A DNA stretch of 64,000 bases, taken from the IMG/VR virus record IMGVR_UViG_3300044701_000569, positions 124,001-188,000 of that record; one strand, 5' to 3'. The notes below the pieces were generated by a model. That model ran no database searches and was not told where the DNA came from. It saw only the letters and a list, made by a program, of their open reading frames with translations. Below, in pieces: positions 27,201 through 64,000 of this stretch. The stretch's first letter is position 1. Every line of letters begins with the position of its first letter. This DNA is from a virus. The translations under genes were made by a program, and so were the position numbers.

Positions 27201-30200
27201 ACACAATGTTGGTAAGCTAGAACAAGACCTAACTTTTAACACAGATACTTTACCAAGTTATAGAAAATATGTTGAAGAAGTTAAACCTTACAAGACTGTT
27301 ATTAGAGAATTTGTAAGTGCTTATGAAACTACTGAAAATACGAATAGTTCAGTATCTGATTTTGACTTACCTCCATTCTATAGTAAACTAGATAGAAAGA
27401 ATATTACTACTGATGCTATTGTAGTATCAAGTAGAATAATCAGTGACGACGAAAATTTAACAGAATATCCAAGAAAAAATTGGTTAGATAATGTTGGTTA
27501 TATTGTTAAAGAGATACAGGTCAAAAATGGCGGCAGCGGATTCTTATACAAGCCTGTTGTTCGCTTAGTTGGAGGAGGAGGAACAGGTGCTACAGCTGAA
27601 GCATATTTAGGTTATGGAAAAGTTACGTCTATTAAAGTAATAAATCCTGGCAAAAATTACATTACTGCACCTCAGGTTATTATTGAAGGATCTCAACTAG
27701 ACACCGGAACTCCAGCAACTGCTTCTGCTATTCTTGGCAGCGGTGTAGTTAGAACTCCAACAGTAAAAATTAAGTTTGACAGAACTTCTAAAAACTACTT
27801 TATTAGCACATTAGATCAGACTGAAAATTTTATTGGTGAAAGCATAAGAACTACCTACGACCTAGAATGGCCTATCGATTTGCAACCAAAAAATATTAAG
27901 GTTTATATCGATAACGAAGAACAACTTAGAAGTACATATACTTGTTCTAACGCAACAAACAAAGACATTGGTTATACTAGACAACAGGGTAGATTAAAAT
28001 TTGTTAAGCCGCCTGTACTTGATGCAGCTATACGAATAGAATATAAGCGTCCCCTGTCTATGTTAAATGCATCTGATAGAATCAATTTTGCTTATAACCC
28101 TCTAGCAGGAATGCTAGGCAAAGACTTAGCACAGCTAATGGATGGTGTTGACTACGGCGGCGTTGAAGTAACAAGTTTTGACTTTGGTGGTCCTGGTGGC
28201 TGGGACGTAAAAGGATGGTATACTGATACTTGGGACACGTTTGACAATACATTTGAAGATGATGTGTTTACATTTGACGGTTCAACTTCAGTAATAGAAT
28301 TATCAACTGTTCTCGAAAACGGTGTGATCTATAACATATACCTTAACGGTGACAGAATAGATGATCCTAATTTTGGAACACCTCAGCAGTATAATCCTAA
28401 TGCCCGAATGCCAAGTATTATAGGCGACGGTGAAACTAAGATTATTGATCTAGGAGAATACGGATTCTTTGCTAACGACAATGACGTTTTGATTGTTAGA
28501 AAGTACACTAGTGATGGTAGCTTTATTCCAGATCCTGAAAGTTATGATACTGCATTATCTGGTGGAGATTTACCTTATACTACAGCTAAGGGAGTTAGGG
28601 CTGAAGAAATTGTAGTTGACGGCGACGGATTTGTAACACCTACTACAAGTAAGGGTCCTGAAGAATTAGTACCAGGACAAGTATTAGACACAGTTGATAT
28701 CAAAGTTTATACTAGAGATAGTGTAGGTCAGGGAATGATTTATAGTCAAAGTTACATAATGGATGCAACTGTAACTACATACTCGTTAGGAGTTGTTCCT
28801 GGCACTCGACCTTCTATATTTGTTAAAATGGATAACAGATTATTAGCCAATGAAGAGTATACTATTGATTGGGAAAATAATTCAATAACAATTCTTACAC
28901 CTATAGACGGTGTAGAACTTAATATTTTAACTGTTGAAAGAGGCGGACAGGACATAGTTGACTATGGTAGAATTATAGCAGATGCTTCAACTACTGACTA
29001 TGAAATTTCTAGAAAATATGTAGAAGGAATGACAGCATTTGTTACAGTTGACGGAATTCAAATTCATGTAATTCTGTATGCTTCTGAATTAAACGAAAAT
29101 GCAGTAATTAGATTTGAAGAAGTGCAAGATGCAGGTGCAGTTATACACTGGACGCTGTTTTCAACAGATACGGTTGTAAATTATAGCGTTGTATCAAAGG
29201 AAACTTTTGTAGCAGACGGAGTTAACAATTTGTTTGTATTAGCTTCAGCACCGTTCTATTCAATACCTACAACTTATAATATAATGGTAAAAGTTGAAAA
29301 TAGAATACTTAATCCCGGCTATAATATCCAGTACGAGATTCCCGCTAATAGACAGAGAGAATATCCTTTAGAATCTTTCCAACAACCTGGGAATGCATTA
29401 CTTACTGAAAATATTAATGTCTATGTTAATGGTTCACAAGTATTTGCCCCAACACAATGGAGATTTGACATCTTTAATAGTAGCGTAATACTTTCGGATG
29501 CAGTTGGTGATGTAGGTGATACATTAGAAATATATGTAATATCTGACGGGGAATACCAATTAAACGGCACTAACTTAACAATAGGTCAAACGCCAGACGA
29601 TGGTGATACTGTAGAAGTATTCAAATTTAGCAATCATGACCTTGTTGGCATAGAGCGCATAAACTATGATGTTGTTGCTAGAGATACATTGATAGCAGAA
29701 GATATTGATTATGTAACATACAATCGATTAACAGTAGGTGAAATTAAGTTAAGAAAGCCTGCTGCGGATGTACAATATGTTTGGGTAAGCGTAAATGGAG
29801 AATTATTAACACCTAGTGTTGATTACTATCTTGTTGATAACAAAAAGAAAGTTAGATTAGTTAGAAGACCTGCTCAAAATGATGCAATTGATATCATTCA
29901 CTTTACGCCGCCGGTGTCTCAGCCTAAGTTTGCGTTTAGACAGTTTAAAGACATGCTGAATAGAACACACTACAAGCGTTTAGACGCACCTACTACAGTT
30001 CTAGCACAGCCATTAAACTCTTATGATTTAAGAATTGAAGTTGAAGACGGAACTAGTTTACCGTTGCCAAACAAGGGTGGTAATTTACCGGGTATTATAT
30101 TTGTAAACGGTGAACGTATTGAGTATCTTGTAAAAGAAGGAAATACACTAAGACAACTTCGTAGAGGTACTCTAGGAACAGGTGTAAAAGATACACACGA

Positions 30201-30651
30201 TGCTGGTTCAGACGTATACGATCAGAGTATGCTAAAAACAGTTCCATACAAAGATGTTACACAAATACAAAAAGAAGAGGGTAACGGAGTTACTAGTACA
30301 TGGACATTAAACTTTAAAGCTCAAACAGTTAACGAGTTTGATGTGTTTGTTGCAGGTAGAAGATTAAGAAAAACAGCAATAGCTGTGTTTAATCCTATAC
30401 AAGCACTAGACAGCACCGATGGAGATACTGTATCACCTGCTGAATTTACATTAAATAACACTGTAAATGAAGAAACGGGAGAAATTATTAGTAGTCAAGT
30501 ACAACTTGCTGTTGTACCTGGCAATAAGCAAACAGTAAACTTTATTAGGAAAATAGGAAAAACCTGGGCAGCACCCGGTGAAACACTATCAACCAGTCAG
30601 GCTGATATTGGAATTTTCTTGAGAGCAGGAACAACCAAGCTGCCCGAATAA
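15256..30651 (+). CDS. giant modular baseplate/adhesin structural protein (5131 aa)
   Basis: One uninterrupted frame of 5131 residues, roughly 570-580 kDa, in the place T4 gp7 occupies after gp6. The N-terminus (LPRYFRTEANKKFL, YWIPTGPKTV) looks like a baseplate-docking segment of marine T4-like phages. Modules seen: at least nine beta units of the form V-x-V-N-G-x-x-L with an aromatic D-Y tail (near 754, 984, 4214, 4358, 4522, 4677, 4720, 4842, 5029); FG-GAP-like propeller blades (about 2255-2335, 2890-2970, 3110-3240) with SVSPDGEFLAVGIPDA; five carbohydrate-binding-like units of CBM5/12 style (about 1575, 1838, 2341, 2977, 3038); and two GxGY-type repeats (about 3712-3782 and 4082-4145). 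No catalytic motif or signal peptide is visible. Function is inferred: baseplate wedge plus host-surface binding. Confidence 0.8.
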   Translation: MSNHTQNENALPVPGNNSRAVSDLLPRYFRTEANKKFLQSTLDQLVQPGVAEKISGFFGRKNSKAYAAGDNYIGDVSKARENYQLEPALVIKDNLDNVTFYKDYNDYVNQLKIFGANTTNHSRLNSQETYAWNPNIDWDKFVNFREYYWIPTGPKTVRVTGQAKEVISTYTVRLTDNGDNVSYLFSPDGFTSNPSLKLYRGQTYRFDIDCVGHPMAIAISRTFTPGNAVVVAGREGVRGEGLFDAKLYGNDYDLGDYIILPDSGSVTFDADENVSTLYPDGIRKLGEAGEEIANVYIEKGIIEFTIPINAPDKLYYISKNDVDVSGLIKIYDIEENTFLDVETEILGKKTYKSANGIEFTNGLKVEFLGTVVPKIYSEGNWYVEGVGDKIRLIEEKDLIIPASYTANINVPFDSEGFDTLPFSDSSSYAKEKDYIVINRSSRDRNPWSRYNKWIHKDVLIKTAEYNKIPFDIDENLRAKRPIIEFEAGLKLYNYGSFAKLDVDLVDAFTLDVFSTIEGSLGYNIDGIDVADGMRILFTADRDKLVNGKIYQVKFVTIGNNRQISLIEVSDSEPLDLETVFVINGNNYGGKTFHYHGDRWMLAQEKTKRNQPPLFELVDAEGNNQSNSNIFNATTFKGSKIFSYKIGNGANDIELGFPLSYKNIENSGDIEFEFNLLTDTFTYQTETDIISVSTSTSCLKKFTDRTNFDYVNGWSKTPTVSKQKVIRQYVSTQAENNNFQIDVYNKAAFITDLRVNVFVNNKLKKQELDYTLDRINEKVFVRFFNDLEENSNVILKTDSTTPKNDNGWYDFPINLERNPLNEDISTFTLGEVIDHVDSMIEDIYEFTGTYPGPSNLRDLGELDVYGKRFVKHSSPLNLALYHITNKKYNIVKAMDYSRKEYARFKRIFIETASTLGYDGEIKQHVDLILKEINRDKVKSQPFYFSDMINWGNDNKVIEYEVLDPRNPFYPLSEVFDITVPSQRAVNVYLNGYQLVHNKDYTFNNEGFLVLDSYQQEGDILRIYETSSTDGSFIPPTPTKLGLYPSYVPQLIIDDTYLSEEPVINGPFKIYGEDETTSKIGWFYPVYTSRRAAQNADSNNAAKQLVLAGYNRVLYIPTNTGIEAGTDNVELDEYPVGTAVIRGHDGSFVKAFKDYRDTLIIDLEKRIFNNIKVFYNPLETELLYGEGTLSLFDFVPGKFRKTEFTRNEINESLRGSFVEWLSLVETDYTSNYFYERENQFTFNYSTMTNVVDGTSLPGFWRGVYKEQFDTDRPHSHPWEILGFTIKPKWWNEVYGPAPYTGNNGVMWGDIEKGIIREPGKQVRVLEKFARPGLTSFIPVDSKGRLLSPIAANIAKNFVYRNTTQSFEFGDEAPVETAWRRSSEYPFAILRAWVLNQPSKAMGVGFDTSRLDKNLVGQYVYKDTKKHLTLADLQLPNTYEDASRIQTSGLINFIYNLVASNILTVYNDYKTDLVSIRNQLGLKLGGFTDKQKLKIVLDSRSPKASESEGVFVPEENYQVFLNTSSPVETIVYSGVIVEKAPDGFIIRGYNNEIPYFKYFQTQSTQNDVTVVVGGITESASEWAANRRYVKGQLLINSFKYYRVTDNFTSGPSFTTNNLALLSDIPIVGGKRAQFKKNFLKSSNKILTYGTKLSTSQDVVDFILGYDAYLKYQGFTFDYFNRETNFVENWDNAAREFLFWTTQGWASGTTISLSPGATSLNLSTAYSVADDILDVFYSYGVVKQDGDALDRKFISIYRNKNVFEVRPKNTNDGIYGVSIPVVQKEHVLLIDNTTVFNDIIYQPSTGYRQERLKVTGYRSDNWTGGLDIPGFIFDDATITDWEPWQDYSVGSLVKFKQFYYVAIYQITGSEEFNSNFWYRLNEKPVPKLYTNFDYKINQFSDFYDLDSDNFDAEQQRLAQHLIGYQKREYLANIINDDISQYKFYQGFIQDKGTKNAITKLFDPLSGSDRDSFDFYEEWAIQVGRYGAVDNVQQVEYTLEEKKFQEAPQPVQLVDQLPVESFDNIYRIRPFEVYDKPEGYNHKPFPTTTIDPDYLLSSGYVHEEDVEYKAGSIDDLEITDINQLQLGQYIWLTRTNSDGWTVYQISDAIANVTALEALGTFTENNKPIIKLTLDKWAAPILNVGELIAVKGATEFNLTGIHEVDFLDAATVNIVAPVENEIEPFDNQKFVLVKLRQVRVSNLAALNNLIQEQIYDKQKVWVDNYKDNNWGVYQNSPVYGAVQQALTNPALFDSTDHRYSTSMTATDNNYNLFVSAPGDGDGVVYHYRRTRDTNNLIQEPAINPDRDLFNTTNSNFGESISVSPDGEFLAVGIPDASQIKTRFRGNFDPTQTYNKNEIVKYRESLWKANRVILPTTTNQPFSTFDTYVQLVNEADSDSTAIKLLISGNPGLDNSISDHFLVRAPLDMYLGTKSGDLVKLGWNPVSFAYPTLDPYTPFDNEIPELSSYIENTHEIQAKIDHILFVETFVGLPEVGERVTTNTGSGIVHYVDIKGDSAVIYVKETNGTFDLTGELFIDDADFIGFYSEEETYNVASNLGGFWLFKTYRVGEPPESGYTSELSNVDGFTYNNNSRWYDIGRGLVYVDVVTEEHIGNPGRPFNYYNIQKTISEIGVYISNNNQASFIGQLTYFGDPGRTYLVDTEDEYPSNLWVVRGSKVYTDTIETGDHIEFRLYDLDNRTIDLASAGLSYDILNKEQTVYDLWDGYIDFEYTRFNADGDPYEPVIGDILQDIQTPFDEFGGLALTSYSTSTAEVVFYQRKFNFVRVFVKNKTGNWARLNNIGRVEVRRLANVTARGSSDVSRTIATINDFNNDVVLGNDLIGKLVVFQHTSNFPLVSNPYITDEEYYFFNEVIDNGAARDENPPNSLNKDYTQVYNIPGDEFGAVGPNSAGAVAIYNKTANGSYKLLVLLSSEYATTNRKFGQKVKIIQNKGLYTLFASSVGDTSDDYGSIEIFKHGYEPGEYFKGNWKVSSSYLKNDIVRNRDNYYKAIKNISPDDSININNSIYWNKISWRQAKDENYQGALNTAYPYSIGSIVSYDGSLYRAKTNIAAGSSLNFNEWELVSNNIDYLGYLPNRTSNAFYGEEIYSPSSTYIEQFAIDYDVSDSGSVIAVLTKEVDSDSTSRVNLVIYRLIDEQYLLDQTIELGKNTTRVSISPQGNIIAVSEPENDERKTDQGKVVVYRQVNGAFAYAQTLLPPQNEESEKFGSSIAFSDDNFVVSSLNGDMKIPTTFDVDNNNETTFDRDYTTFKNVIKDTGVVYIFEDIEDSLVYSESFRYDNATIQFGENLLSNGNHIYVGMQSVGNDNYKGTILNYRKTKNAVAWNRTRELVPPVDVSKIRGAFLYNKRTNQIVTYLDYIDPIQGKIAGPAEQEITHRVPYDPATYNVGVFTGVDKDTFWAEEHVGEVWWNLKTARFTYPYQGDIQYQKANWNELQPGSSIDVYEWVESRFLPSQWDTLADSESALNEGISGVSIYGDNLYTQKFVYDPVSKTFSNRFYFWVGRKLTVPKVENRSLSVFDIARLIATPREQGYRFVNFLGSDRFLLNNCDSLIYNDDIVLNIKYATGKNTEQQLHSAYYIMSEGLESSSIHPDIERKWFDSLIGFDEQNRTIPDTKLTVKQKYGVQNRPRQSMFVNREEALKQVIERINSVLVTESILDSYNTSSLMLKDNEPTEIDRTFDSTIDTLEELRFVSTNKISQAVLTPIIQNGRIVRVDIDDPGRGYKIVPTYTLVGPGTDAEFELTINNLGQITDVTILNSGRGYDDNTRILVRKHSVLVKNDASIHGKWAIYSWNNETSSWFRSTIQGYDVTAYWSYADWYANGYNTFTKIDHEIDVTDDIFKLNVNLGSTVRIANVGSGGWLLLEKIAAVDSEDYTVNYKTIGRQNGTIQFKDTLYNFQKNTIGFDNRNYDSVAYDNLSARELRIILNAIKNDIFVGNLKVEYNKLFFASLRYILTEQNYVDWFFKTSFIKIKHNVGKLEQDLTFNTDTLPSYRKYVEEVKPYKTVIREFVSAYETTENTNSSVSDFDLPPFYSKLDRKNITTDAIVVSSRIISDDENLTEYPRKNWLDNVGYIVKEIQVKNGGSGFLYKPVVRLVGGGGTGATAEAYLGYGKVTSIKVINPGKNYITAPQVIIEGSQLDTGTPATASAILGSGVVRTPTVKIKFDRTSKNYFISTLDQTENFIGESIRTTYDLEWPIDLQPKNIKVYIDNEEQLRSTYTCSNATNKDIGYTRQQGRLKFVKPPVLDAAIRIEYKRPLSMLNASDRINFAYNPLAGMLGKDLAQLMDGVDYGGVEVTSFDFGGPGGWDVKGWYTDTWDTFDNTFEDDVFTFDGSTSVIELSTVLENGVIYNIYLNGDRIDDPNFGTPQQYNPNARMPSIIGDGETKIIDLGEYGFFANDNDVLIVRKYTSDGSFIPDPESYDTALSGGDLPYTTAKGVRAEEIVVDGDGFVTPTTSKGPEELVPGQVLDTVDIKVYTRDSVGQGMIYSQSYIMDATVTTYSLGVVPGTRPSIFVKMDNRLLANEEYTIDWENNSITILTPIDGVELNILTVERGGQDIVDYGRIIADASTTDYEISRKYVEGMTAFVTVDGIQIHVILYASELNENAVIRFEEVQDAGAVIHWTLFSTDTVVNYSVVSKETFVADGVNNLFVLASAPFYSIPTTYNIMVKVENRILNPGYNIQYEIPANRQREYPLESFQQPGNALLTENINVYVNGSQVFAPTQWRFDIFNSSVILSDAVGDVGDTLEIYVISDGEYQLNGTNLTIGQTPDDGDTVEVFKFSNHDLVGIERINYDVVARDTLIAEDIDYVTYNRLTVGEIKLRKPAADVQYVWVSVNGELLTPSVDYYLVDNKKKVRLVRRPAQNDAIDIIHFTPPVSQPKFAFRQFKDMLNRTHYKRLDAPTTVLAQPLNSYDLRIEVEDGTSLPLPNKGGNLPGIIFVNGERIEYLVKEGNTLRQLRRGTLGTGVKDTHDAGSDVYDQSMLKTVPYKDVTQIQKEEGNGVTSTWTLNFKAQTVNEFDVFVAGRRLRKTAIAVFNPIQALDSTDGDTVSPAEFTLNNTVNEETGEIISSQVQLAVVPGNKQTVNFIRKIGKTWAAPGETLSTSQADIGIFLRAGTTKLPE

Positions 30652-44599: not shown

Positions 44600-45917
44600 A
44601 CTTTCAGAATACCATTTAATACATCTAAAGAAAAGTGACGAGATTTCGTCTACTTTCTGTTCTGCTAAATGGCATATGGTTACCCTGCATCTTGCACAGG
44701 GAGAAACTCATAGTTGTTACCATCCGTGGACACACAAAGTTCCCCTAGAAGAATTAAAAAATAATCCAGGTGCAATACATAATACACTCTTTAAAAAGAG
44801 TCAACGTAAACTTATGCTCAATGGAGAACGTCCTAAAGAGTGTGAATACTGCTGGCGTATGGAAGATTTAGGTAATATCAGTGATAGAATAATTCGTAAT
44901 GCTGAACCTTATGCTAAAAATGACCTAGACACTTTTAAAACATACACTGGCGACGAGGATGTCTACCCGCGCCATGTAGAAGTGAGCTTTAGTACAACCT
45001 GTAATCTTAAATGTTCTTACTGTAATCCTACAGTAAGTTCTAAGTGGCTTGAAGAAGTTAATCAATATGGCGGTTATAAAACAAGTACTGAGTTTAATGA
45101 CTATATCAAACCAGGTAAACCTCTACCATTTATATTAGATAGAGAACACAATCCTTATATTGACGCATTTTGGGAATGGCTACCGGACGCATACCCTCAT
45201 ATGCATGTCCTTCGTGTCACTGGCGGTGAGCCTCTTATGAGTAAACACACGTTTACTCTGCTGGATTACATTGCTGAAAATCCTAATCCTAAACTAGAAG
45301 TTGTAGTTAACTCTAATATGTGTGTGCCTGATAAGCTGATTGATCAAGCTATAGCAGCAGGTAAAAAGATAGTAGAACGTGTGGGTGTATTTAAGATGTT
45401 TGCAAGTCTTGACAGCGTTGGTGCTCAAGCCGAATATCAACGTTACGGTTTAAATTTTGAACAGTTTACAAAAAATGTAAGACGTTTCTTAGATGAAATC
45501 CCCAACAGCAAAGTTTCATTTACTTGCACCTTTAATGTATTCAGTGTTCCTAATGTAAAAGGCTTTATGGAATATATGTATAGTTTACATAAAGATTACG
45601 GTAAGAGAATAAACTTTGACACACCGTATTTGCGTTTTCCACCACATCAGTGTGTACAGATATTGCCAAATGAGTATGTAAAATATTTAGAGGCTGCTGA
45701 AGAATACATGATAGAAAAGTCATTTCCTCAGCTTACAATTGACAAGATTCAACGATTAAAAAGTTATATGACAAATAAAACTTTTACAGAAGAACAGTTA
45801 TCTACGTACAGAAAAGACTTTGTTATATTTGTAGACGAACACGATAAACGCAGAGGAACAAATTTCTTAGAGACTTATCCTGAGCTAAAAGAATTTTACG
45901 AGTTGTGTAATGAATGA
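44580..45917 (+). CDS. radical SAM protein, class A, close paralog of the preceding gene
   Basis: 445 residues. N-terminal cysteines C27, C46, C88 and C91, core motif C141-xxx-C145-xx-C148 (TTCNLKCSYC) and TGGEP at 214-218. Alignment with the previous protein is nearly gap-free through the core, including NPYIDAFWEWLPDAYPHMHV, SNMCVPDKLID and a C-terminal FVDEHDKRRGTNFLETYPEL against FFNQHDQRKGFNFVEVFPEL. The two genes are therefore a recent tandem duplication. The overlap with the previous gene is 20 bases, longer than most junctions in the block. One cysteine of the N-terminal pair seen in the paralog (C22) is absent. Confidence 0.88.
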   Translation: MTVDRSKLSEYHLIHLKKSDEISSTFCSAKWHMVTLHLAQGETHSCYHPWTHKVPLEELKNNPGAIHNTLFKKSQRKLMLNGERPKECEYCWRMEDLGNISDRIIRNAEPYAKNDLDTFKTYTGDEDVYPRHVEVSFSTTCNLKCSYCNPTVSSKWLEEVNQYGGYKTSTEFNDYIKPGKPLPFILDREHNPYIDAFWEWLPDAYPHMHVLRVTGGEPLMSKHTFTLLDYIAENPNPKLEVVVNSNMCVPDKLIDQAIAAGKKIVERVGVFKMFASLDSVGAQAEYQRYGLNFEQFTKNVRRFLDEIPNSKVSFTCTFNVFSVPNVKGFMEYMYSLHKDYGKRINFDTPYLRFPPHQCVQILPNEYVKYLEAAEEYMIEKSFPQLTIDKIQRLKSYMTNKTFTEEQLSTYRKDFVIFVDEHDKRRGTNFLETYPELKEFYELCNE

Positions 45918-46770
45918 AATTTACATTAAATTTTCTAATGACTCGTATATTCAGATAGAATTATTAAAAAATAATTTTGTTGATGAATGGCTAGAAGTTT
46001 TTCAAAAAACTTCTAAATCAAATATTGGAACATTTAGAATAACTCCGCTAGTAGGATTAGAGTATTGCGATAATGAAATTAATAAATCGATAGATCGTCT
46101 TAATGAAATTTTTGCCAAACTTAACTCTTTAACAGGTGTATCTGCCAACATTCCGGTGTTAACAAGACAAAATATATCAAGAAAACTGTGCAATAAAATA
46201 CATCGTATTTTTACAACTCTTGTAAATTCTCAAGGTACAAAGTATAATTTTGGTTCGTCAATTCAACTTAACGGATTAGATTTAAAAAACCATAGAGATT
46301 TAATATATGAAATAAACGACAACATTCATTATGTTGAAAAAATTTTTCATGCTAACTCAGAATTTTTAAAAAATAATCAATCAAATTATGGATTGTTAAA
46401 TTTTAAAAACAAAAAAATAGAAAAAATTAGAAAAGATTATTTTAAATTTTTAACTAATGACACACAGTATGATGTTTTTATAAACGCAAATATTTGCGGC
46501 AAAAGCTATTTAAATTGTTTTTGGGACAATGATATACCAACAAATTATGATATAAAAAACGAAGAAAGTTATTGCGCTGATTTAGAATTTTTTATTCATA
46601 AGCCATCGTTTATTGACCTTATGCAGTATACTGAGTTTACAAACTGGTTACAGAAATATAGTCTTCCAGTTAATAATATAACATCTGGCAGAATGCCTGT
46701 AGGTAAAATAAAGGACAAACTGCTTAAAGATACAGACAGCATAGAAATAAAGAATATCGAATATGCTTAA
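45910..46770 (+). CDS. unknown protein, divergent paralog of the gene at 53717
   Basis: 286 residues, very AT-rich, Asn/Lys/Ile-rich. No named domain is visible. Two blocks match the protein at 53717: a helical block with N-x-x-I-H (LIYEINDNIHYVEK against CELNGLIHKLEG), and a C-terminal order of G-K, F, E-F-F, W, G-x-V-G-x-I (ICGKSYLNCF, DLEFFIHK, NWLQKY, GRMPVGKI here; GETGKNMAHIF, LSEFFLPF, KKWCIKH, GKWEVGQI there). Both lie beside radical SAM genes, so they may be partner proteins or binding subunits. Eight-base overlaps on both sides (ATGAATGA and ATGCTTAA) tie it to them. Function unknown. Confidence 0.55.
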   Translation: MNEIYIKFSNDSYIQIELLKNNFVDEWLEVFQKTSKSNIGTFRITPLVGLEYCDNEINKSIDRLNEIFAKLNSLTGVSANIPVLTRQNISRKLCNKIHRIFTTLVNSQGTKYNFGSSIQLNGLDLKNHRDLIYEINDNIHYVEKIFHANSEFLKNNQSNYGLLNFKNKKIEKIRKDYFKFLTNDTQYDVFINANICGKSYLNCFWDNDIPTNYDIKNEESYCADLEFFIHKPSFIDLMQYTEFTNWLQKYSLPVNNITSGRMPVGKIKDKLLKDTDSIEIKNIEYA

Positions 46771-47719
46771 AAAGATTTGGTTTAAAAAAGATTATGAAAC
46801 TTTTTTTATTACATGGAGTTTACATAACCTATGTAACTTTCGCTGCGACTACTGTCCACCAAATTTAAATAACGGCACTACAAAAAATATTTCATTTAAG
46901 CATGTAGAAACGTTTTTTAACAATCTAAGACAAAAGTTACCAAACAAAAAATTTATATTTGCATTTAGTGGCGGAGAACCAACTCTTCATCCTGAGTTTA
47001 TTGACATGATCAAATATCTTAGCGACAATGGTTGTGAAATATGTATGACCTCAAATGGTAGTAGGAGCATTGATTGGTGGCAACGTGCAGAACCTTATGT
47101 TGATCACTTAGTTTTTAGTTATCATCCTGGTTGGACTAAACCTACAAAGCTAAAAGAAAATATAGATTTTTTAACACAAACTAGTTGGGTAAATCTTGAT
47201 TTGATGATGAATCCTACTCATTGGGACGAAATCATTTCATTAGGTGAATCTTTTAAAGACAAGCCTAATATTGCTGTAACTTACTTGCCAATACAAAAAG
47301 ATTTTGGTAATGGTGCTAATGGTTTAATTGATTACACAGAACAACAGTTAGAATTCCTTAAGAATCCTCCTAATTACTGGGGAAAGTTTCAACCTGCTAA
47401 ACATAAATTAGAAAAATGTAAAGGACAGTTTGGTAGAGGGTTAAAATTTATGGAAACATCTGAAGGAACAAGACAGTTAGATTACAAATATTTAATTGCA
47501 AACGATCTTAATAGATTTAAGGGTTATGAATGTAACCTAGGCATGGAAGGTCTAATTGTTGAAATAAACGGTGATATATACAATGCTTATTGCCATGTAG
47601 GAGGTGTTGTAGGTAATATTTTTACCGGCGAATATAATCTAACAGACACTCCAACTATTTGCCCTGCTAATTATTGTTCCTGTTCAGTTGACATTGAAAT
47701 CTCAAAGAGAAAAATATGA
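46763..47719 (+). CDS. radical SAM protein with C-terminal cysteine-knuckle domain
   Basis: 318 residues, first member of what I call class B. The radical SAM core is at the N-terminus: C24-xxx-C28-xx-C31 (NLCNFRCDYC) and SGGEP at 69-73. After a YTEQQLEFLKNPP element (near 190) and a linker comes a compact domain: C257 in GYECNLGMEGLIVEINGD, C277, then C300, C305 and C307 in ICPANYCSC. Five cysteines are enough for an auxiliary Fe-S cluster. The same domain ends the proteins at 57932, 62657 and 63636 and begins the one at 49029. It overlaps the class A gene downstream by ATGA. Reaction unknown. Confidence 0.86.
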   Translation: MLKKIWFKKDYETFFITWSLHNLCNFRCDYCPPNLNNGTTKNISFKHVETFFNNLRQKLPNKKFIFAFSGGEPTLHPEFIDMIKYLSDNGCEICMTSNGSRSIDWWQRAEPYVDHLVFSYHPGWTKPTKLKENIDFLTQTSWVNLDLMMNPTHWDEIISLGESFKDKPNIAVTYLPIQKDFGNGANGLIDYTEQQLEFLKNPPNYWGKFQPAKHKLEKCKGQFGRGLKFMETSEGTRQLDYKYLIANDLNRFKGYECNLGMEGLIVEINGDIYNAYCHVGGVVGNIFTGEYNLTDTPTICPANYCSCSVDIEISKRKI

Positions 47720-49032
47720 CTAAAAAAAGAGACAGTTTCTGCATAATGCCTTTCATACATCTTCATAATATGAGCAGTGGTCTTATGAAGATGTGCTGTA
47801 TAACAGAAAAGCCAATTGTAGATGATTTTGGTAAAACTGTTTTTATAGGCAATCAGCCTATCAACGAAGTGTGGAACAACAACTTTATGCAGACTGTGCG
47901 CAAGTTTATGCTTGAAGGCAAAGAACTTTCATTATGCAAAGACTGCTATGATGTAGAAGATAGTGGTGGCAAAAGTTTACGTAATGAATATAATGAAAAT
48001 TACAAAGAACAATTTACACAGTTTATTGATGAAGCAAAAACTAATGATGGCAAGATTAAAACGTTTCCACCGTTTATTGAATTAAGAACTGGGAACAACT
48101 GTAATAGTGCTTGCCGTATGTGTAATACTAATGACAGCAGCTTAGTATATAAAGAAAACACAGAAATTCACAAGACTCTAAAATCTAATGGGTTTGATTC
48201 TCGCACAGTAGAACACGGATATAGAATGATGGGAGATCCTGAGAAAATTATTTTTGGTCTACAGGATGATAGAATGCAGACTAGGGTAATGGACTTAGAT
48301 AAGCATTTTGATGAAATAATTGAAAACATACATCATATAAAATTAATTACACTCAGTGGTGGAGAACCTTTCCTATTAGAAAAAACAGCAGTTCTTTTAG
48401 AAGAACTTGCAAACAAGAACCCTAATGTAATTTTATACATTAATACTAACGGATCTATTCTTAGCGATAGATTAATATCTGCTCTAAAGCGTATTGAAGA
48501 AGTTAGAATCTGCGTAAGTCTTGATGGACATGGAGCTATACAAGAGTATATTAGATATCCGCTCAAATGGGAAAAGATTGAAAGAAATATCTATCAATTA
48601 AAATCTTTAACCAAGAAAGGATTTTATCTAAATTTTAATATTACAGTACAAGCACTGAATGTACTCAATCTAGATCCTTTATTAACGATGCTGGTAACTG
48701 ATTTTATTGGACATCATGTTAATCTTTCATTCTTAACAAATCCTACACATTTTGCTGTTCAGCAGTTACCACAGGCTGTAAAAGAACGAGCAGTTGAGCT
48801 TAACAAGGAGTTAGCTAATAAAATAAATTCAGTGCCATCATTGCCTGGTTATTTTACTGAAAACAAAGTAAGACTAGCAGAACGGTTACTTGAATTAAAT
48901 TCTTTTATGCTAGCAGAAACAGCGCCTAATCCTGAAATGTTTGAAAGATTTAAAGCTAACATAAAGATTTATGACTATTACAGAAAACAACAGCTCGCAG
49001 ACTATGCACCAGATTGGATTCCTTTTCTATGA
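47716..49032 (+). CDS. radical SAM protein, class A (N-terminal twitch-like domain)
   Basis: 438 residues. The N-terminal domain reads FCIMPFIHLHNMSSGLMKMC with C9, C27 and C28, then C74 and C77 in LCKDCYDVEDSGG. The core motif is C129-xxx-C133-xx-C136 (NNCNSACRMC), with SGGEP at 214-218 and the substrate-side strand ICVSLDGHGAIQEYIRYP near 265. It belongs with the proteins at 50014, 51290 and 61248: the FC-x-x-P-(W/F)-(V/I)-H start, the CC pair and the RYP element are shared. It is placed directly between a class B gene and the permuted class B gene. Substrate unknown. Confidence 0.88.
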   Translation: MTKKRDSFCIMPFIHLHNMSSGLMKMCCITEKPIVDDFGKTVFIGNQPINEVWNNNFMQTVRKFMLEGKELSLCKDCYDVEDSGGKSLRNEYNENYKEQFTQFIDEAKTNDGKIKTFPPFIELRTGNNCNSACRMCNTNDSSLVYKENTEIHKTLKSNGFDSRTVEHGYRMMGDPEKIIFGLQDDRMQTRVMDLDKHFDEIIENIHHIKLITLSGGEPFLLEKTAVLLEELANKNPNVILYINTNGSILSDRLISALKRIEEVRICVSLDGHGAIQEYIRYPLKWEKIERNIYQLKSLTKKGFYLNFNITVQALNVLNLDPLLTMLVTDFIGHHVNLSFLTNPTHFAVQQLPQAVKERAVELNKELANKINSVPSLPGYFTENKVRLAERLLELNSFMLAETAPNPEMFERFKANIKIYDYYRKQQLADYAPDWIPFL

Positions 49033-50012
49033 ATAAATTTGTTAGAATAATTAGAGACGGAGAATACACAGACTACACTCCGCAAGATTTAATACACAAC
49101 GATGTAAACAAATTTTCAGGCTGGAAATGTAGTGCAGGTTCTGAAGGTCTGTTTATTGATTGGGACGGTAGTGTGTGGCCTGCTACATGTGAAGTAGGAA
49201 GAAAAAATTATTATCTTGGATCTCTCAAAGATGAACATCCTATTAAACTTTTAAATGAATACATAGATTGCTATCATAATTATTGTCCTTGTTTAGTTGA
49301 AATATATCTTCCTAAATATAAAAGTTCTAAAAACGAACTTAACGAGATTAAGGAAGGTGCAGTAGATTTATCAGATTTTAGTGCAGTAACACGAGCCAGT
49401 AAGTTTGATAGAGATAGAAAATATATCATGTGGGCTTTTGGTCGCAAGTGTAATTTTTCTTGTTCTTATTGCGATGATAACAGTCACAGTAAGCTAGATA
49501 GTGATTTAGTAGAACTAGCAGCAGTTACTAAGGCACTTGGGTATGCTGAACGTTTTAGAGAAGGCAAACCTTTAATGTGGAGTTTTACTGGCGGAGAACC
49601 TACAATTAATCCGTTATTTCTAGGACTAGTAAAGAATTTAAGTAACAAGGGCGACGTTATTACAGTAGCAACTAACGGTAGTGCGCCTAGCGAGTATTAT
49701 GCAGAGTTAGCAAAATATGCTAATATAAATATCAGTGTGCATTTTGAATTTTTAAAGCCAGAAAAACTTCGTCGCATTACAGAATCAATTATATCATCAC
49801 AACCTCATTGGTTTGGATTAAATTTTATGATTATGCCAGGTAAAGCTGAGTTAACATATTCCTATGCATCAATACTATCGGATATACCGAAGTTTAAAGA
49901 AACTGCCACAGTACATTTTGATATTTTAAGAAAAAAGAATACAGGTATATATGAGATATATTCTGAACAGGACATGCAGATAATTAACAAATTAAAGTTG
50001 GGTGAATATTAA
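49029..50012 (+). CDS. radical SAM protein with its cysteine-knuckle domain at the N-terminus (permuted)
   Basis: 327 residues from ATG 49029, which overlaps the previous stop (ATGA); a TTG at 49014 is less likely. Residues 25-95 are the domain that ends class B proteins: NKFSGWKCSAGSEGLFIDWD (C34), C54, then C81, C86 and C88 in CYHNYCPC. The radical SAM core follows: C141-xxx-C145-xx-C148 (RKCNFSCSYC) and TGGEP at 187-191. The protein stops right after YSEQDMQIINKLKLGEY, the element that in class B precedes the linker to the knuckle domain. The order is therefore reversed relative to its siblings. It may be a functional permutation or the relic of a deletion between two tandem genes. Confidence 0.85.
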   Translation: MNKFVRIIRDGEYTDYTPQDLIHNDVNKFSGWKCSAGSEGLFIDWDGSVWPATCEVGRKNYYLGSLKDEHPIKLLNEYIDCYHNYCPCLVEIYLPKYKSSKNELNEIKEGAVDLSDFSAVTRASKFDRDRKYIMWAFGRKCNFSCSYCDDNSHSKLDSDLVELAAVTKALGYAERFREGKPLMWSFTGGEPTINPLFLGLVKNLSNKGDVITVATNGSAPSEYYAELAKYANINISVHFEFLKPEKLRRITESIISSQPHWFGLNFMIMPGKAELTYSYASILSDIPKFKETATVHFDILRKKNTGIYEIYSEQDMQIINKLKLGEY

Positions 50013-50013
50013 T

Positions 50014-51297
50014 ATGAATCAAGAAGATCTAAAGAATTCAAAATCGTTTTGCATTATGCCATGGGTGCATTTAGCAACAGAGCCTAGCGGCGATGTAAAA
50101 ATCTGTTGTTTGTCAAATAAGAGAATTCGTTCAACTGATAGAAATCATAACCTTGGCCAAGATGATGTTATTGAGATTTTTAACAGCGATCAAATTAGAC
50201 GTAATAGAAAAAACATGCTAGAGGGCGTTAGAATACCTGAGTGTGTGCATTGTTGGAAGGAAGAAGACACTGGCGGACTGTCTCAAAGGCAGGGAGTGAC
50301 AGAGCAGTGGTTAAGAGAATATCCAGAACTGTTAGACATGATTGAAGAAGCTGTAAAGAACGATTATCATGTTAATCATGCTCCTATGTACTATGACTTT
50401 AGATTTGGAAATCTTTGCAATTTAAAGTGTCGCAGTTGCGGATCTTTAAATAGTACACAAATTAACAAGGAATACACAGAGCTAAAAGAAAAATATCCTA
50501 GCACTACATTCTTTTTTGACAGCGGAGAGAAGTACGAAACTCTTAATGAGTGGTATAAGACAGAACAGTTTCACAACAACGTATACAACAATATTGATAA
50601 AATACGAAAAATATATGTTACCGGCGGCGAGCCAACCCTTATCGAACAAAATTATAAGATAATGGAAAAGATTGTAGAAATTGGCAGAGCTAAAGAAGTT
50701 ACAATTATGTTTAACACTAACATGACTAATCTACGTGATGATTTTTACGAGTTAATTGTTAAATTTAAAAATGTAGAAATGTGTATATCAATTGAAGGCT
50801 ACGGTGAAATACAAGAATATTTGAGATATCCGGCTAATTGGAAACAGATAGACAAAAACATTAGACGACTAGCTAGCCTACCTCCGCATGTTCAAATTTT
50901 TGCAGTACCTGTAATCCAAAGTGTTAACTTAGAATACACAGTTGATTTTTGGAAATATATTGAAGACATTAATAATGAATATGGCTACTACAGAGTAAGA
51001 TTGTTACCAATTCTTTTAGACAGTCCGGCTATGAGTGATCTAGGAATATTGCCACTTGAGTATAAATTGAAATGTTTAGCTAAACTAGAAGAATATGTAA
51101 AGTCAGCCAAGTATATAATGGAAGATCCTCACTTTGTAGGTAGGTATAACAATATCAAATCAAAATGTGAAAAAGATCTTTATAATCCAAAGCTGTTAAC
51201 TCAGTTTAAAACATTTACAGATATACTTGACAAAAATAGGGGTCAGAGTTTACAATTAGTAAATCCTTCGCTTTATGAGATATTAGAAAATGTCTAA
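50014..51297 (+). CDS. radical SAM protein, class A
   Basis: 427 residues from ATG 50014, one base after the previous stop; a GTG at 50002 has no ribosome-binding site. N-terminal cysteines C13, C31 and C32 (FCIMPWVHLATEPSGDVKIC) and C77/C80 (ECVHCWKEEDTGG). Core motif C135-xxx-C139-xx-C142 (NLCNLKCRSC), TGGEP at 203-207, then MCISIEGYGEIQEYLRYP. It resembles the protein at 47716 most closely, including the DxxGxGxIQEYxRYP strand with Glu in place of Asp. The GDVKICC segment matches the cluster-binding hairpin of SPASM/twitch domains. Substrate unknown. Confidence 0.88.
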   Translation: MNQEDLKNSKSFCIMPWVHLATEPSGDVKICCLSNKRIRSTDRNHNLGQDDVIEIFNSDQIRRNRKNMLEGVRIPECVHCWKEEDTGGLSQRQGVTEQWLREYPELLDMIEEAVKNDYHVNHAPMYYDFRFGNLCNLKCRSCGSLNSTQINKEYTELKEKYPSTTFFFDSGEKYETLNEWYKTEQFHNNVYNNIDKIRKIYVTGGEPTLIEQNYKIMEKIVEIGRAKEVTIMFNTNMTNLRDDFYELIVKFKNVEMCISIEGYGEIQEYLRYPANWKQIDKNIRRLASLPPHVQIFAVPVIQSVNLEYTVDFWKYIEDINNEYGYYRVRLLPILLDSPAMSDLGILPLEYKLKCLAKLEEYVKSAKYIMEDPHFVGRYNNIKSKCEKDLYNPKLLTQFKTFTDILDKNRGQSLQLVNPSLYEILENV

Positions 51298-53720: not shown

Positions 53721-54547
53721 AAATGGAATTTTATAACAAAGATAATCTCACAGGGGTAATTGAAATAAAAGTGTTTGAAACCCAAACAGCAAAAACCTTT
53801 GTTGATGTTATTTCTAAAACTAACAAAACATCATCAACTACTAATCATAGTATTAGCAGAAATAAGATAGAAATTATTAACGATTTTCTTCGAATGAAAG
53901 AAGTTGTTAAACAGTATAATGATACCTCTTATGACAGAAAAATAGATGTTGATTTAGAAAAAGATTTTAGTTTACACAAACTTTTTGATTTACACGAACA
54001 CTTTGAACATTTAGGAGAACGCAAACGTTCTAATGATCCTACACTTAGTATTAAAGCATACAACGAAGTTATCAACATAGGTTGTGAATTAAACGGATTA
54101 ATTCATAAATTAGAAGGTAACTTATATGGAGGACAATGGTTACAGGCCCTATATAAAAAGCCAGACATTGTAAGAATTCCGTTAACCAAAGAAATAATAT
54201 CAGAAGCAGTGCCAGGTTATAGAAAAGATGTCCTATATGTTGGTTATGGAGAAACAGGCAAAAACATGGCACACATATTTCAAATGAATGAGCACGAATT
54301 ATTAGAAAGAAAGATGGTCCAACCTCAAAGATATATTTTAAGTGAATTCTTTTTGCCATTTAATGACATGCCTTTAGATTATGAAGGATATAAGAAATGG
54401 TGCATTAAACATGATGCAGCTGAAAAAGGTTACGACTACGAAAATCCTATTTGGTATGGAAAATGGGAAGTAGGCCAAATAGTTAAAAAATCGTTTAACA
54501 ACTTATCAAGTTTCCCTCAGTACGATACTATAAGGTTCGTTATATGA
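53717..54547 (+). CDS. unknown protein, divergent paralog of the gene at 45910
   Basis: 276 residues. A helical central block (LHKLFDLHEHFEHLGERK, AYNEVINIGCELNGLIHKLE) leads to a C-terminal block with DVLYVGYGETGKNMAHIF, RYILSEFFLPFND, GYKKWCIKHDA and WYGKWEVGQIV. The same residue order occurs in weaker form in the protein at 45910. The DLHEHFEHLG stretch holds several histidines that could bind metal, but the paralog does not keep them, so I do not assign a metal site. It starts with ATGA overlap after a glycosyltransferase-like gene and ends with ATGA overlap before the first SGNH gene. Function unknown. Confidence 0.55.
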   Translation: MKMEFYNKDNLTGVIEIKVFETQTAKTFVDVISKTNKTSSTTNHSISRNKIEIINDFLRMKEVVKQYNDTSYDRKIDVDLEKDFSLHKLFDLHEHFEHLGERKRSNDPTLSIKAYNEVINIGCELNGLIHKLEGNLYGGQWLQALYKKPDIVRIPLTKEIISEAVPGYRKDVLYVGYGETGKNMAHIFQMNEHELLERKMVQPQRYILSEFFLPFNDMPLDYEGYKKWCIKHDAAEKGYDYENPIWYGKWEVGQIVKKSFNNLSSFPQYDTIRFVI

Positions 54548-55374
54548 GTAAGTTGGTAATTTTTGGAGATAGTTTTGCTGATAAAGTGTTAACACATATT
54601 CCAGAAGATAAACAAGCATGGTTTGAAATTTTATCTAAAAAGTTGAACAAAGATTTAGTAAGTTACGGATTAAACGGAACGTCTATTAGTTACTCTGTAT
54701 CTAAGTTGTTTGAATATCTTAATTCTCTTCAATACCATCCAGATGACATAATAGTTTTTGTAACATCTGCTCTAAGTAGATTGCCTCTAGTACACGATAA
54801 AATTGTTCCTAATTATGCATCAAAGTGGTTAATGTATTTAAATGGTGATTTGTCTAAAAAAGATAACGCATGGGCACACTTTCATCAGAACCATAATTTT
54901 TATAAAATGTATCATCAATTTTTTAATTACGAGCAAGTAAAGCAACAAAAAATAGGCATTGCATTGACATTAAAAGGATTACCTAATTTAACTGTAATAC
55001 TGTCAGCATTTGAAGATGTAACTGAAGGATTAATAGATGATCGATTAGATTTATTAAAAAATGATACCAACTTTATTTTAATAAATGCAAAATTATTTCA
55101 AATTAGTGAAGCAGAGTTTGCTCCAACAGGCACAACATATGTTAACTTTACTGATTTTTTTGGAGGAGAATGCAGACATTGCCATTTATCAAATTCTAAT
55201 AATCAAGAATTAGCAGATCAATTATATAATTGTATAACACATCAAAGTAATAACTATTTTAATAAAGACAATTTTAAAAAGCATTTTATTCCGCTTGATT
55301 ACACACAGACTGAAATATTAAATAAAGAATTGTTATCACTTTGGGGTAGAGGAGTTAAAAAATATAATGTCTAA
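54544..55374 (+). CDS. SGNH-hydrolase-like protein, tandem copy 1
   Basis: 276 residues. LVIFGDSFAD (4-13) is a standard SGNH/GDSL block I with S10 as candidate nucleophile, followed by SYGLNGTSISYS with G42/N44 in the oxyanion-hole region. The late histidine lies in GGECRHCHLSNSNN (H214), but the residue three before it is Arg, not the usual Asp, so the catalytic triad is either rearranged or incomplete. SGNH enzymes of this type often add or remove acetyl groups on glycans. No signal peptide, so it acts inside the cell or on assembled phage. The next gene is a same-length paralog starting with the same twelve residues. Confidence 0.7.
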   Translation: MSKLVIFGDSFADKVLTHIPEDKQAWFEILSKKLNKDLVSYGLNGTSISYSVSKLFEYLNSLQYHPDDIIVFVTSALSRLPLVHDKIVPNYASKWLMYLNGDLSKKDNAWAHFHQNHNFYKMYHQFFNYEQVKQQKIGIALTLKGLPNLTVILSAFEDVTEGLIDDRLDLLKNDTNFILINAKLFQISEAEFAPTGTTYVNFTDFFGGECRHCHLSNSNNQELADQLYNCITHQSNNYFNKDNFKKHFIPLDYTQTEILNKELLSLWGRGVKKYNV

Positions 55375-56197
55375 ATTGGTAATTTTTGGCGATAGCTTTG
55401 CAGATAGAATACGCCTTACAAAAAATTATAATTCTGTAGTATGGTATGAATTACTAGCAGATCGATTAAATTTGCAACTTCACCACTACGGAATGAACGG
55501 AACTTCTATAGAATATTCTATTTTAAAACTATATCAATATTTAAATTCTGATAATTATTCAACAGACGATGTTATCATCTTTGTGTGTACTAGCAGTACA
55601 AGAGTTCCTTTAGTTCACGAAAATCTTAATCCTAAATATGCAGCGCATTGGTTAAAGTTTTTACAAGGCGAACTAGTAAATAGCGCCGAGAAAGATTTAG
55701 TTAATCATTATCAGAAAAACAATTTATTTTATAAAACATTGTTTTCATTTTTTAATTACGATTTAGCTCAAACACAAAAGAGTCATGCCGCATTATTGCT
55801 AAAAACACTACCAAATACCGCAGTAATTATGACTGCATTTGACGACATACTTGCTATTAAACCTAATAGAAACGTTCTTAACGATACAGATAATTTTTTA
55901 TTAATAAACGCTAATCTATTTGCTATTTCAACTAACGAATTTGCTGAAGGTCTTAAATACGACACTTTTAGAAATTTTTTTAAAGGAGAAGTAAGAAATT
56001 CTCATTTAGGAACAACTAATAATAATATACTTGCTCAACAGTTATACAACTGTATTAAAAATAAATCAAGCAAGTATTTTATAAAAGAAGAATATAAAAA
56101 AAATTATATAAAATTAGAAATAAACAATACTACAAAAGAAATTTATGACTACGAGTTAGTTAAAATTTGGCGAGAAAATTTAAGATTAGAAGATTAG
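55367..56197 (+). CDS. SGNH-hydrolase-like protein, tandem copy 2
   Basis: 276 residues, same length as copy 1. Identical start (MSKLVIFGDSFAD, S10), then HYGMNGTSIEYS, VCTSSTRVPLVHENLNPKYA against VTSALSRLPLVHDKIVPNYA, and GEVRNSHLGTTNNN with H213 and again Arg three residues before. The shared Arg shows the missing Asp is a family trait, not a mutation in one copy. The C-terminal 50 residues are Lys/Asn-rich and diverge. The junction with copy 1 is the eight-base overlap ATGTCTAA. The pair is a tandem duplication that has diverged well past recent identity, which suggests two distinct substrates. Confidence 0.7.
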   Translation: MSKLVIFGDSFADRIRLTKNYNSVVWYELLADRLNLQLHHYGMNGTSIEYSILKLYQYLNSDNYSTDDVIIFVCTSSTRVPLVHENLNPKYAAHWLKFLQGELVNSAEKDLVNHYQKNNLFYKTLFSFFNYDLAQTQKSHAALLLKTLPNTAVIMTAFDDILAIKPNRNVLNDTDNFLLINANLFAISTNEFAEGLKYDTFRNFFKGEVRNSHLGTTNNNILAQQLYNCIKNKSSKYFIKEEYKKNYIKLEINNTTKEIYDYELVKIWRENLRLED

Positions 56198-62660: not shown

Positions 62661-63655
62661 AACAACTAGCAAGAGTTATTACTACACAAGATCCTACTCT
62701 TTTAGATGTGAGATTTTGGCCTACCGATATTTGTAACTTTAGTTGTAACTATTGTTTTCCTGGCAGTGTTCTTAACAAGTATCGTTATCCTAAAAATGTC
62801 AACACTGTAATAAAGAATTTTAGAATACTGTTTGATGCATATATGAAACTGCATAACAAGAAAAAGTTTAAGATAAACATAGTAGGGGGAGGTGAACCTA
62901 CATTATGGCCGCATCTCTCAGAGTTCTGTCAAGGCATTAAAGAAACACATCCAGTTGAAATACAATTGACTTCTAACGGCAGTAGAACTCTTAGATGGTG
63001 GGAAGAAAATAGTTTATATGTTGATAAAGTAGTATTAAGTTGTCATTACAAAGATGTTGACATTAATAATTTTATTCAAGTAGCTGATTATATTTTTGGA
63101 AGAGGTACAGACATAGGTGCTCTAATGCTTATGGATGCTACGGCTTGGGATACATGTGTTGAATTAATTGAACAAATGAGAAGCAGTAAACATCCTTGGA
63201 TTATACAAGCAAAAGAAGTTGTAGATGCTCCAGGATATGATATAAGAAACTATACAGCAGAACAGCTCAGTTATTTTAAACAACCTTTTAAACGTGTTCC
63301 GGATACTAATTGGATTATTAATAACATACATAGATTTAGAGTACACGAAAGTGTATCGCTTTATGATGATAATTCTGTAGAGCTAGCACTACCTAACTAT
63401 TACATAGTTAATAAATTAAATCAATGGAAGGGTTGGAATTGTAATGTGGCTCTTGAAAATCTAGTTATTACTTATGACGGTACAGTTACAGGTAGTTGTC
63501 AAGAACCTGTGTTTTCTAATTCTAATTTAAATATGTTTGCAGAAGATTTTGAAGAAAAATTTAGCGAAGAATCGCTAAGTTTAAAAACATTAATTTGTCC
63601 AAGAATGAATTGTAGCTGCCAACCAGATACGCACATTACAAAATGGAAGTCTTAG
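62657..63655 (+). CDS. radical SAM protein, class B
   Basis: 332 residues. Core motif C26-xxx-C30-xx-C33 (DICNFSCNYC) and GGGEP at 77-81, followed by IQLTSNGSRTLRWWEE, which is close to CMTSNGSRSIDWWQR of 46763. YTAEQLSYFKQPFK ends the core. The knuckle domain has C262 (GWNCNVALENLVITYDG), C281, C314, C319 and C321 (ICPRMNCSC). A 12-15 residue acidic insertion (EDFEEKFSEE) lies before the last cysteines. It is the last plus-strand gene; its final 20 bases overlap the 3' end of a convergent homolog on the other strand. Confidence 0.87.
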   Translation: MKQLARVITTQDPTLLDVRFWPTDICNFSCNYCFPGSVLNKYRYPKNVNTVIKNFRILFDAYMKLHNKKKFKINIVGGGEPTLWPHLSEFCQGIKETHPVEIQLTSNGSRTLRWWEENSLYVDKVVLSCHYKDVDINNFIQVADYIFGRGTDIGALMLMDATAWDTCVELIEQMRSSKHPWIIQAKEVVDAPGYDIRNYTAEQLSYFKQPFKRVPDTNWIINNIHRFRVHESVSLYDDNSVELALPNYYIVNKLNQWKGWNCNVALENLVITYDGTVTGSCQEPVFSNSNLNMFAEDFEEKFSEESLSLKTLICPRMNCSCQPDTHITKWKS

Positions 63656-64000
63656 TCAGCGGAATGTCTGCTGCACAAGTACACCAATTTCTATCACAAA
63701 TTATTTCTGATGCTGGAATACGAAAATCTCCTTTATAGATATTTCCTAAACTACCGCCAACCCTGCAAGTAGCTCGGTGTACTTCACCATCCCAGTTAAT
63801 CATTAGACTTTCAATACCTGCACTGCATTTCCAATCTTTAAATTTATTCATATGCAGTTTTATTATATCATTAGCATGATATAGATCTTTGTTGTCAACT
63901 ATGCAATTTTCTTTTGCTGTTGCGTTGTTTTCTAATAGATATTTTAAGTCATTAGGTTGATATCTCATGTCGTCGAACCAATCGTGATCACCTTCGGTCC
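63636..64000 (-). CDS. radical SAM protein, class B, C-terminal part only (continues beyond the window)
   Basis: The minus-strand frame is open from the right edge to a TAA at 63638-63636, giving about 120 residues without the core. The visible part begins with HDWFDDMRYQPNDLKYLLEN, which corresponds to the YTEQQL element of class B, then a linker and the knuckle domain: WKCSAGIESLMINWDGEVHR, a second Cys, GSLGNIYKGDF, and ICDRNWCTC. An ATG at 63968 lies inside the frame but is not the likely start, because coding similarity continues upstream of it. The radical SAM motif itself should lie outside the window. It is convergent with the gene at 62657 and marks a strand switch in the block. Confidence 0.82.
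   Translation of the reverse strand, partial: TEGDHDWFDDMRYQPNDLKYLLENNATAKENCIVDNKDLYHANDIIKLHMNKFKDWKCSAGIESLMINWDGEVHRATCRVGGSLGNIYKGDFRIPASEIICDRNWCTCAADIPLTKTSIL

Follow-up and report, generated by a model that had tools for sequence, protein, structure and literature searches.

The 327-residue protein encoded at 49029..50012 on the plus strand (ATG at 49029, TAA at 50010-50012), hereafter P0001, is very probably a circularly permuted Twitch-type radical SAM enzyme that belongs to an old and widely spread subfamily. As profile comparisons show, one part of the protein is homologous to the core of its STM4011-like siblings and the other to their C-terminal Twitch (half-SPASM) domain, with the order swapped, and proteins of this kind are a new, circularly permuted variant of Twitch-type radical SAM enzymes. 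The gene is located in a window of 64,000 nucleotides (bases 124001-188000 of a 357,559-base virus record) from the genome of a large tailed phage. A limited literature search yielded no SPASM/Twitch enzyme that is circularly permuted in nature, and nothing relevant on permuted radical SAM proteins or on an N-terminal SPASM domain.

Domain order of P0001

We built separate HMMs for the Twitch domain and the core solely from canonical proteins, i.e., those in which the core precedes the Twitch domain. The Twitch HMM matches residues 6-104 of P0001 (iE 3.7e-25) and the core HMM residues 132-317 (iE 3.6e-31), in swapped order compared to the canonical proteins; as a control, 500 shuffled copies of P0001 gave only 5-7 stray matches at E<10. 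From these matches, hhalign and secondary structure, the N-terminal Twitch domain including its leading hairpin spans residues 6-98 (49044..49322, plus strand). It is followed on the same strand by a junction linker (residues 99-130; 49323..49418), which is the least conserved part of the protein, and by the radical SAM core (residues 131-317; 49419..49979), which is also detected by Pfam Radical_SAM (3.6e-13; PF04055 at residues 137-251, 50.5 bits versus a cut-off of 29.5). Pfam SPASM at residues 34-70 scores 17.7 bits and stays under its cut-off of 21.5. The comparison of permuted and canonical Twitch domains by hhalign gives 99.8%, and an independent curated model, NF038073 (the STM4011 family), matches residues 30-90 of P0001 with its C-terminal part (positions 200-255 of 278).

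Against a full-length canonical profile, native P0001 aligns in 2 pieces, one of 110 bits (profile positions 6-201) and a second of 71 bits (profile 225-311) that is located at the N-terminus. Upon rotation of the sequence at residue 99-111, the best rotation point, a single piece is obtained that covers profile positions 6-311 with 190.7 bits. In the same scan, the score of a relative from Bdellovibrionota (L176) rises from 118 to 222 bits, and the canonical sibling P0002 (46763..47719, plus strand), included as a control, scores best unrotated. Profile stretch 201-225, left unmatched by native P0001, corresponds to the linker that connects the YSEQ helix with the hairpin preceding the first Twitch cysteine, and its absence from the native alignment indicates that the new ends lie in that linker.

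AlphaFold models were obtained for P0001 (pLDDT 89.0, pTM 0.87) and P0002 (pLDDT 86.3, pTM 0.87), with the pTM of 0.87 describing confidence in the predicted arrangement only. Counted from the first Twitch cysteine, both proteins have equal offsets for the hairpin strands, for the helix that follows and for the 2 strands thereafter, and the core elements occur in identical order, shifted by approximately 118 residues, so that, e.g., helix 313-323 of P0001 corresponds to helix 193-200 of P0002. For both models, the best PDB match found by Foldseek is BlsE (7vob), over 208 columns for P0001 and 295 columns for P0002; the shorter alignment is expected, since a sequential aligner meets the permutation. 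In SkfB, the polypeptide runs back to where the core begins, which places the first Twitch strand beside core strand 1 (PMC6231123), so that the two modules could plausibly be joined in either order. We infer that P0001 folds as a two-domain enzyme of the same kind, its Twitch domain packing against barrel strand 1. The original prediction had placed a cysteine-knuckle domain at the start of the protein and the core behind it, and the swapped HMM matches, the gain upon rotation and the models all agree with this; the models also argue against an unrelated fold for the N-terminal cysteines, as these are located in the same fold elements as their counterparts in the siblings.

The SPASM/Twitch motif consists of C-x(9-15)-G-x4-C, followed by further cysteines including a CxC. 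In P0001, the Twitch cysteines are C34, C54, C81, C86 and C88, with the spacing C34-x12-G47-x6-C54, C81, C86-x-C88, and the same domain contains the invariant Lys96. The core has the CxxxCxxC motif (C141/C145/C148, residues 141-148; 49449..49472, plus strand), which provides the ligands of the SAM-binding [4Fe-4S] cluster and is invariant across 25 permuted proteins, as well as the SAM-binding motif TGGEP (residues 187-191; 49587..49601, plus strand), assigned from the sequence and the permuted alignment. The YSEQ element (residues 311-314; 49959..49970, plus strand) opens the last helix and can be aligned in the canonical and permuted families; it precedes the linker to the Twitch domain in canonical members and is located 13 residues from the C-terminus in P0001. 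CxxxCxYC, GGE(P), the Asn of TNG, SxH, the Twitch cysteines and a Lys 8 residues past the last cysteine are common to both orders, with the proviso that Cys54 is not universal, being absent from some permuted relatives; the Tyr of the YSEQ element is nearly conserved in both. The claims that all cysteines and TGGEP are intact and that the protein ends near the YSEQ element are supported.

Compared to a 71% identical homolog (L009), P0001 has an identity of 62% in the linker and of 76% and 70% in the two domains. The corresponding dN/dS (NG86) is approximately 0.13 overall, 0.12 for the Twitch domain, 0.10 for the core and 0.34 for the linker, values that are rough because synonymous sites are saturated. 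At the level of codon changes, this shows that both halves are under purifying selection, and with the motifs intact the protein is apparently functional, as had been suggested.

The gene block and known families

Structural-type genes, among which is one open frame of 5,131 aa (15256-30651), reach to approximately 38.8 kb of the window, after which a block rich in radical SAM genes begins that extends beyond the window end. Six members of N_Twi_rSAM (NF033640) are present in this block, with 299-398 bits versus a cut-off of 170, and 2 of these flank P0001. The upstream gene (47716..49032, plus strand; 316 bits) overlaps with its TGA the ATG of P0001 (ATGA), and the downstream gene (50002..51297, plus strand; 343 bits) overlaps or abuts its end, starting either with GTG at 50002 or with an ATG just past the stop. 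The neighbours further include canonical siblings, a possible methyltransferase and many genes without assignment, and almost none of the non-radical SAM genes are named by Pfam or PHROGs. Also in this region are a 286-aa gene of no recognised family (45910-46770), which the related contigs L009 and L010 lack at that place, and, within the block, an adjacent pair of paralogs (54544-55374 and 55367-56197) that by eye are SGNH-hydrolase-like.

Three core-Twitch proteins are encoded inside the window and a fourth crosses its end: P0002, P0003 (57932..58915, plus strand), P0004 (62657..63655, plus strand) and a protein of which the window holds the C-terminal part (63636..63998). The original prediction that the Cys-rich domain ends all 4 siblings stands insofar as they are core-Twitch by HMM classification, but the protein at 63636 is on the minus strand and its gene begins past the window end, and P0003 has a partly degenerate Twitch domain that lost part of the cysteine set. 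In P0003, the closing CxC reads CVS and the second Twitch cysteine is displaced; the protein may no longer bind an auxiliary cluster.

With its CxxxCxxC, its GGEP and a significant core match, P0001 belongs to the radical SAM superfamily, but it can be filed neither under NF038073 nor under NF033640, as it fails the tests of both. It reaches 22 bits versus a cut-off of 200 for NF038073, through the Twitch part only and at the N-terminus, and 36.5 bits versus 170 for NF033640, through the core only (residues 119-229). Core and Twitch domain of the STM4011 family and of the siblings in the window are homologous to those of P0001 and share its invariant residues, but the order of P0001 is reversed. 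NF033640 proteins resemble P0001 in having an auxiliary-cluster-type domain before the core and are its neighbours on both sides; however, their N-terminal domain has no profile similarity to that of P0001 (hhalign probability 1-2%), and their core is in a separate clade. SkfB, MoaA, BtrN, BlsE and SpeY likewise combine a radical SAM core with a small Cys-rich domain, and that of SkfB shares with P0001 the hairpin and the closing CxC. In described Twitch enzymes, the extra domain comes after the core, and the SPASM/Twitch domain is by description a C-terminal extension (PMC9012708), whereas in P0001 it precedes the core. The likeness to BlsE concerns the fold match to 7vob only, given that the BlsE equivalog TIGR04466 is not among the best 25 families listed for P0001. 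Annotation by domain order misses the permuted group, and no library used here names it.

Relatives and age of the order switch

An identical copy of P0001 is present on another contig, and 2 contigs from other metagenomes encode a copy that is 71% identical across residues 1-325 and lies in the same gene order to either side. To find more distant relatives, we scanned with permuted alignments and classified the matches with the Twitch and core HMMs. This yielded 42 distinct Twitch-core ORFs versus 233 core-Twitch ORFs, a ratio that is not a frequency since the sampling favours permuted relatives. At 70% identity, the permuted ORFs form 28 clusters. Virus contigs account for 18 of these and Bdellovibrionota for 9, and the remaining one comes from a marine Gammaproteobacteria MAG in which phage DNA may be present. 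Within a sample of Bdellovibrionota genomes, 12 of 291 have matches, and nearly all of these align colinearly with the permuted query. L176 is located on a 936-kb contig and adjoins folD- and gcvT-type genes, making it very likely that this gene is chromosomal. Among 50,697 sequenced-phage records, searched with P0001 and 3 other permuted proteins, there was no permuted relative. Nearly all permuted members terminate shortly past a Y[ST]xx(E/Q) element. One subgroup has a MORN-like N-terminal extension of approximately 130 residues (L082:4572-5945, L090:4260-5588; Pfam MORN under cut-off), and another has a long insert between Twitch cysteines 2 and 3 (L105:3965-5221, L107:3950-5344, L108:3965-5398, L111:4269-5630).

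In 2 core trees, a single change separates the permuted and canonical orders. For 2 other core trees, the AU test does not reject a single permuted clade (p 0.43 and 0.37), and one of these trees has a branch that unites canonical and split members (support 81/97). With about one branch between permuted and canonical members, the switch is ancient. The original prediction had proposed a tandem duplication with loss of the outer halves. As a recent, local event that involved 2 neighbouring core-Twitch genes in this phage or its near kin, this is very improbable, even though several core-Twitch genes share the cluster, a core-Twitch gene is located directly upstream of the permuted gene in 8 of the 28 representatives, and an Oligoflexia protein carries core, Twitch, spacer and Twitch on one chain. 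The order occurs in 28 clusters from phages and Bdellovibrionota, including chromosomes of the latter, permuted proteins fall on approximately one side of a core-tree branch, and the core of P0001 is nearest to permuted Bdellovibrionota proteins and away from the siblings in the window. An ancient event via duplication and trimming is one possible route to the permuted order. That an assembly or sequencing artefact fused 2 genes, for which nothing speaks except the unusual order, has a negligible probability: other-sample contigs repeat both the order and the context at 71% identity, on top of the homologs with the same order. Hardly more credible is a non-functional remnant; P0003 demonstrates that loss of Twitch cysteines is possible in the cluster, but the motifs of P0001 are all intact, dN/dS is well below 1 in every part, and its start overlaps the stop of the upstream gene.

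Domain shuffling, by which a core from elsewhere gained an N-terminal Twitch domain without any permutation within the family, would be in keeping with the SPASM-like N-terminal domains of NF033640 proteins, with the existence of stand-alone Twitch genes and with the Twitch tree, which requires 4 changes instead of 1. That tree is based on few columns, however, and its starred branches are compatible with one origin; moreover, Twitch domain, leading hairpin, terminal Lys and core all match one family, and the hhalign result rules out that the Twitch domain was derived from the N-terminal domain of NF033640. We therefore regard shuffling as improbable, albeit less so than the preceding explanations, and favour permutation within the family. 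The direction of the switch is a separate matter, since an older Twitch-core order, with core-Twitch derived, is compatible with permutation. Rooting is unstable between samplings: in the tree with the 81/97 branch, the outgroup roots among the permuted members, making these basal, and this outgroup, NF033640, itself bears an N-terminal SPASM-like domain, but 2 core trees nest the permuted clade among canonical members, and the published description of SPASM/Twitch domains is that of extensions at the C-terminus (PMC9012708). On balance, we consider Twitch-core as the older order to be rather unlikely, though it deserves more weight than shuffling.

Split genes and proposed function

On at least 5 contigs, core and Twitch domain are encoded by separate genes, with the same boundary as in the permutation (L104:4375-5332, L116:4876-5932, L117:4870-6551 and L120:4870-5824; also on L118). 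In these contigs, a core-only gene (225-231 aa) comes after the permuted gene and ends shortly past the Y-element common to the permuted family; a Twitch-only gene (95-125 aa) is next. The core-only and Twitch-only genes share a few bases, L117 being the exception, with a QueC-like PP-loop gene between the two. Such pairs demonstrate that the same boundary can be cut with both halves kept. They are not the intermediate of the permutation, since the split cores are of canonical descent, nesting in the canonical clade beside L127 (100/100). The 654-aa Oligoflexia protein (L192:3932-5896) consists of core, Twitch, a spacer of approximately 230 residues that is not recognised and a second Twitch; we rejected it as a duplication intermediate, given that a second core is not recognisable. 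The circularly permuted lipoate ligase Lpl(BA), from an enzyme family unrelated to P0001, sets a precedent, as its 2 modules occur both as split genes and as a permuted fusion (PMC10332631).

Most likely, P0001 functions as a Twitch radical SAM enzyme within a phage cluster of multiple radical SAM genes. The residues conserved in both orders suggest that it has apparently the same catalytic kit as canonical members. The CxxxCxxC cluster would cleave SAM to the 5'-deoxyadenosyl radical, which would take a hydrogen from the substrate, and the predicted Twitch cluster would accept or relay an electron or position the substrate; such roles of auxiliary clusters in electron transfer and substrate contact have been reviewed for BtrN, MoaA and SuiB (PMC9012708). 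The neighbours, i.e., the 6 NF033640 proteins, the canonical siblings and the possible methyltransferase, suggest that P0001 may perform one step in a tailoring pathway of the phage that involves multiple radical SAM enzymes, and a multi-step pathway is likely because most of the 28 representatives have another radical SAM gene within 4 genes. With BlsE as the best structural match, a small-molecule or sugar/nucleotide-type substrate is a tentative guess, with the odds somewhat against it.

The role of the SPASM/Twitch auxiliary cluster is still debated. Natural permutation and natural splitting at the same point suggest that the domain acts by its docking place and not by its connection, and the permuted, canonical and split versions provide ready material for asking whether the cluster domain acts in trans. 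It is conceivable, if doubtful, that the Twitch domain is an exchangeable module in arrays of multiple radical SAM genes (as core-Twitch, Twitch-core or 2 genes), with stand-alone or N-terminal Twitch domains serving, or being shared by, neighbouring cores in trans. Elsewhere in this phage, QueE-like and FolE-like genes and a gene that by eye only resembles DpdA/TGT are present among L011:17582-18454 (minus strand), L011:18828-19526 (minus strand) and L012:5474-7033 (minus strand), possibly constituting a 7-deazaguanine modification pathway.
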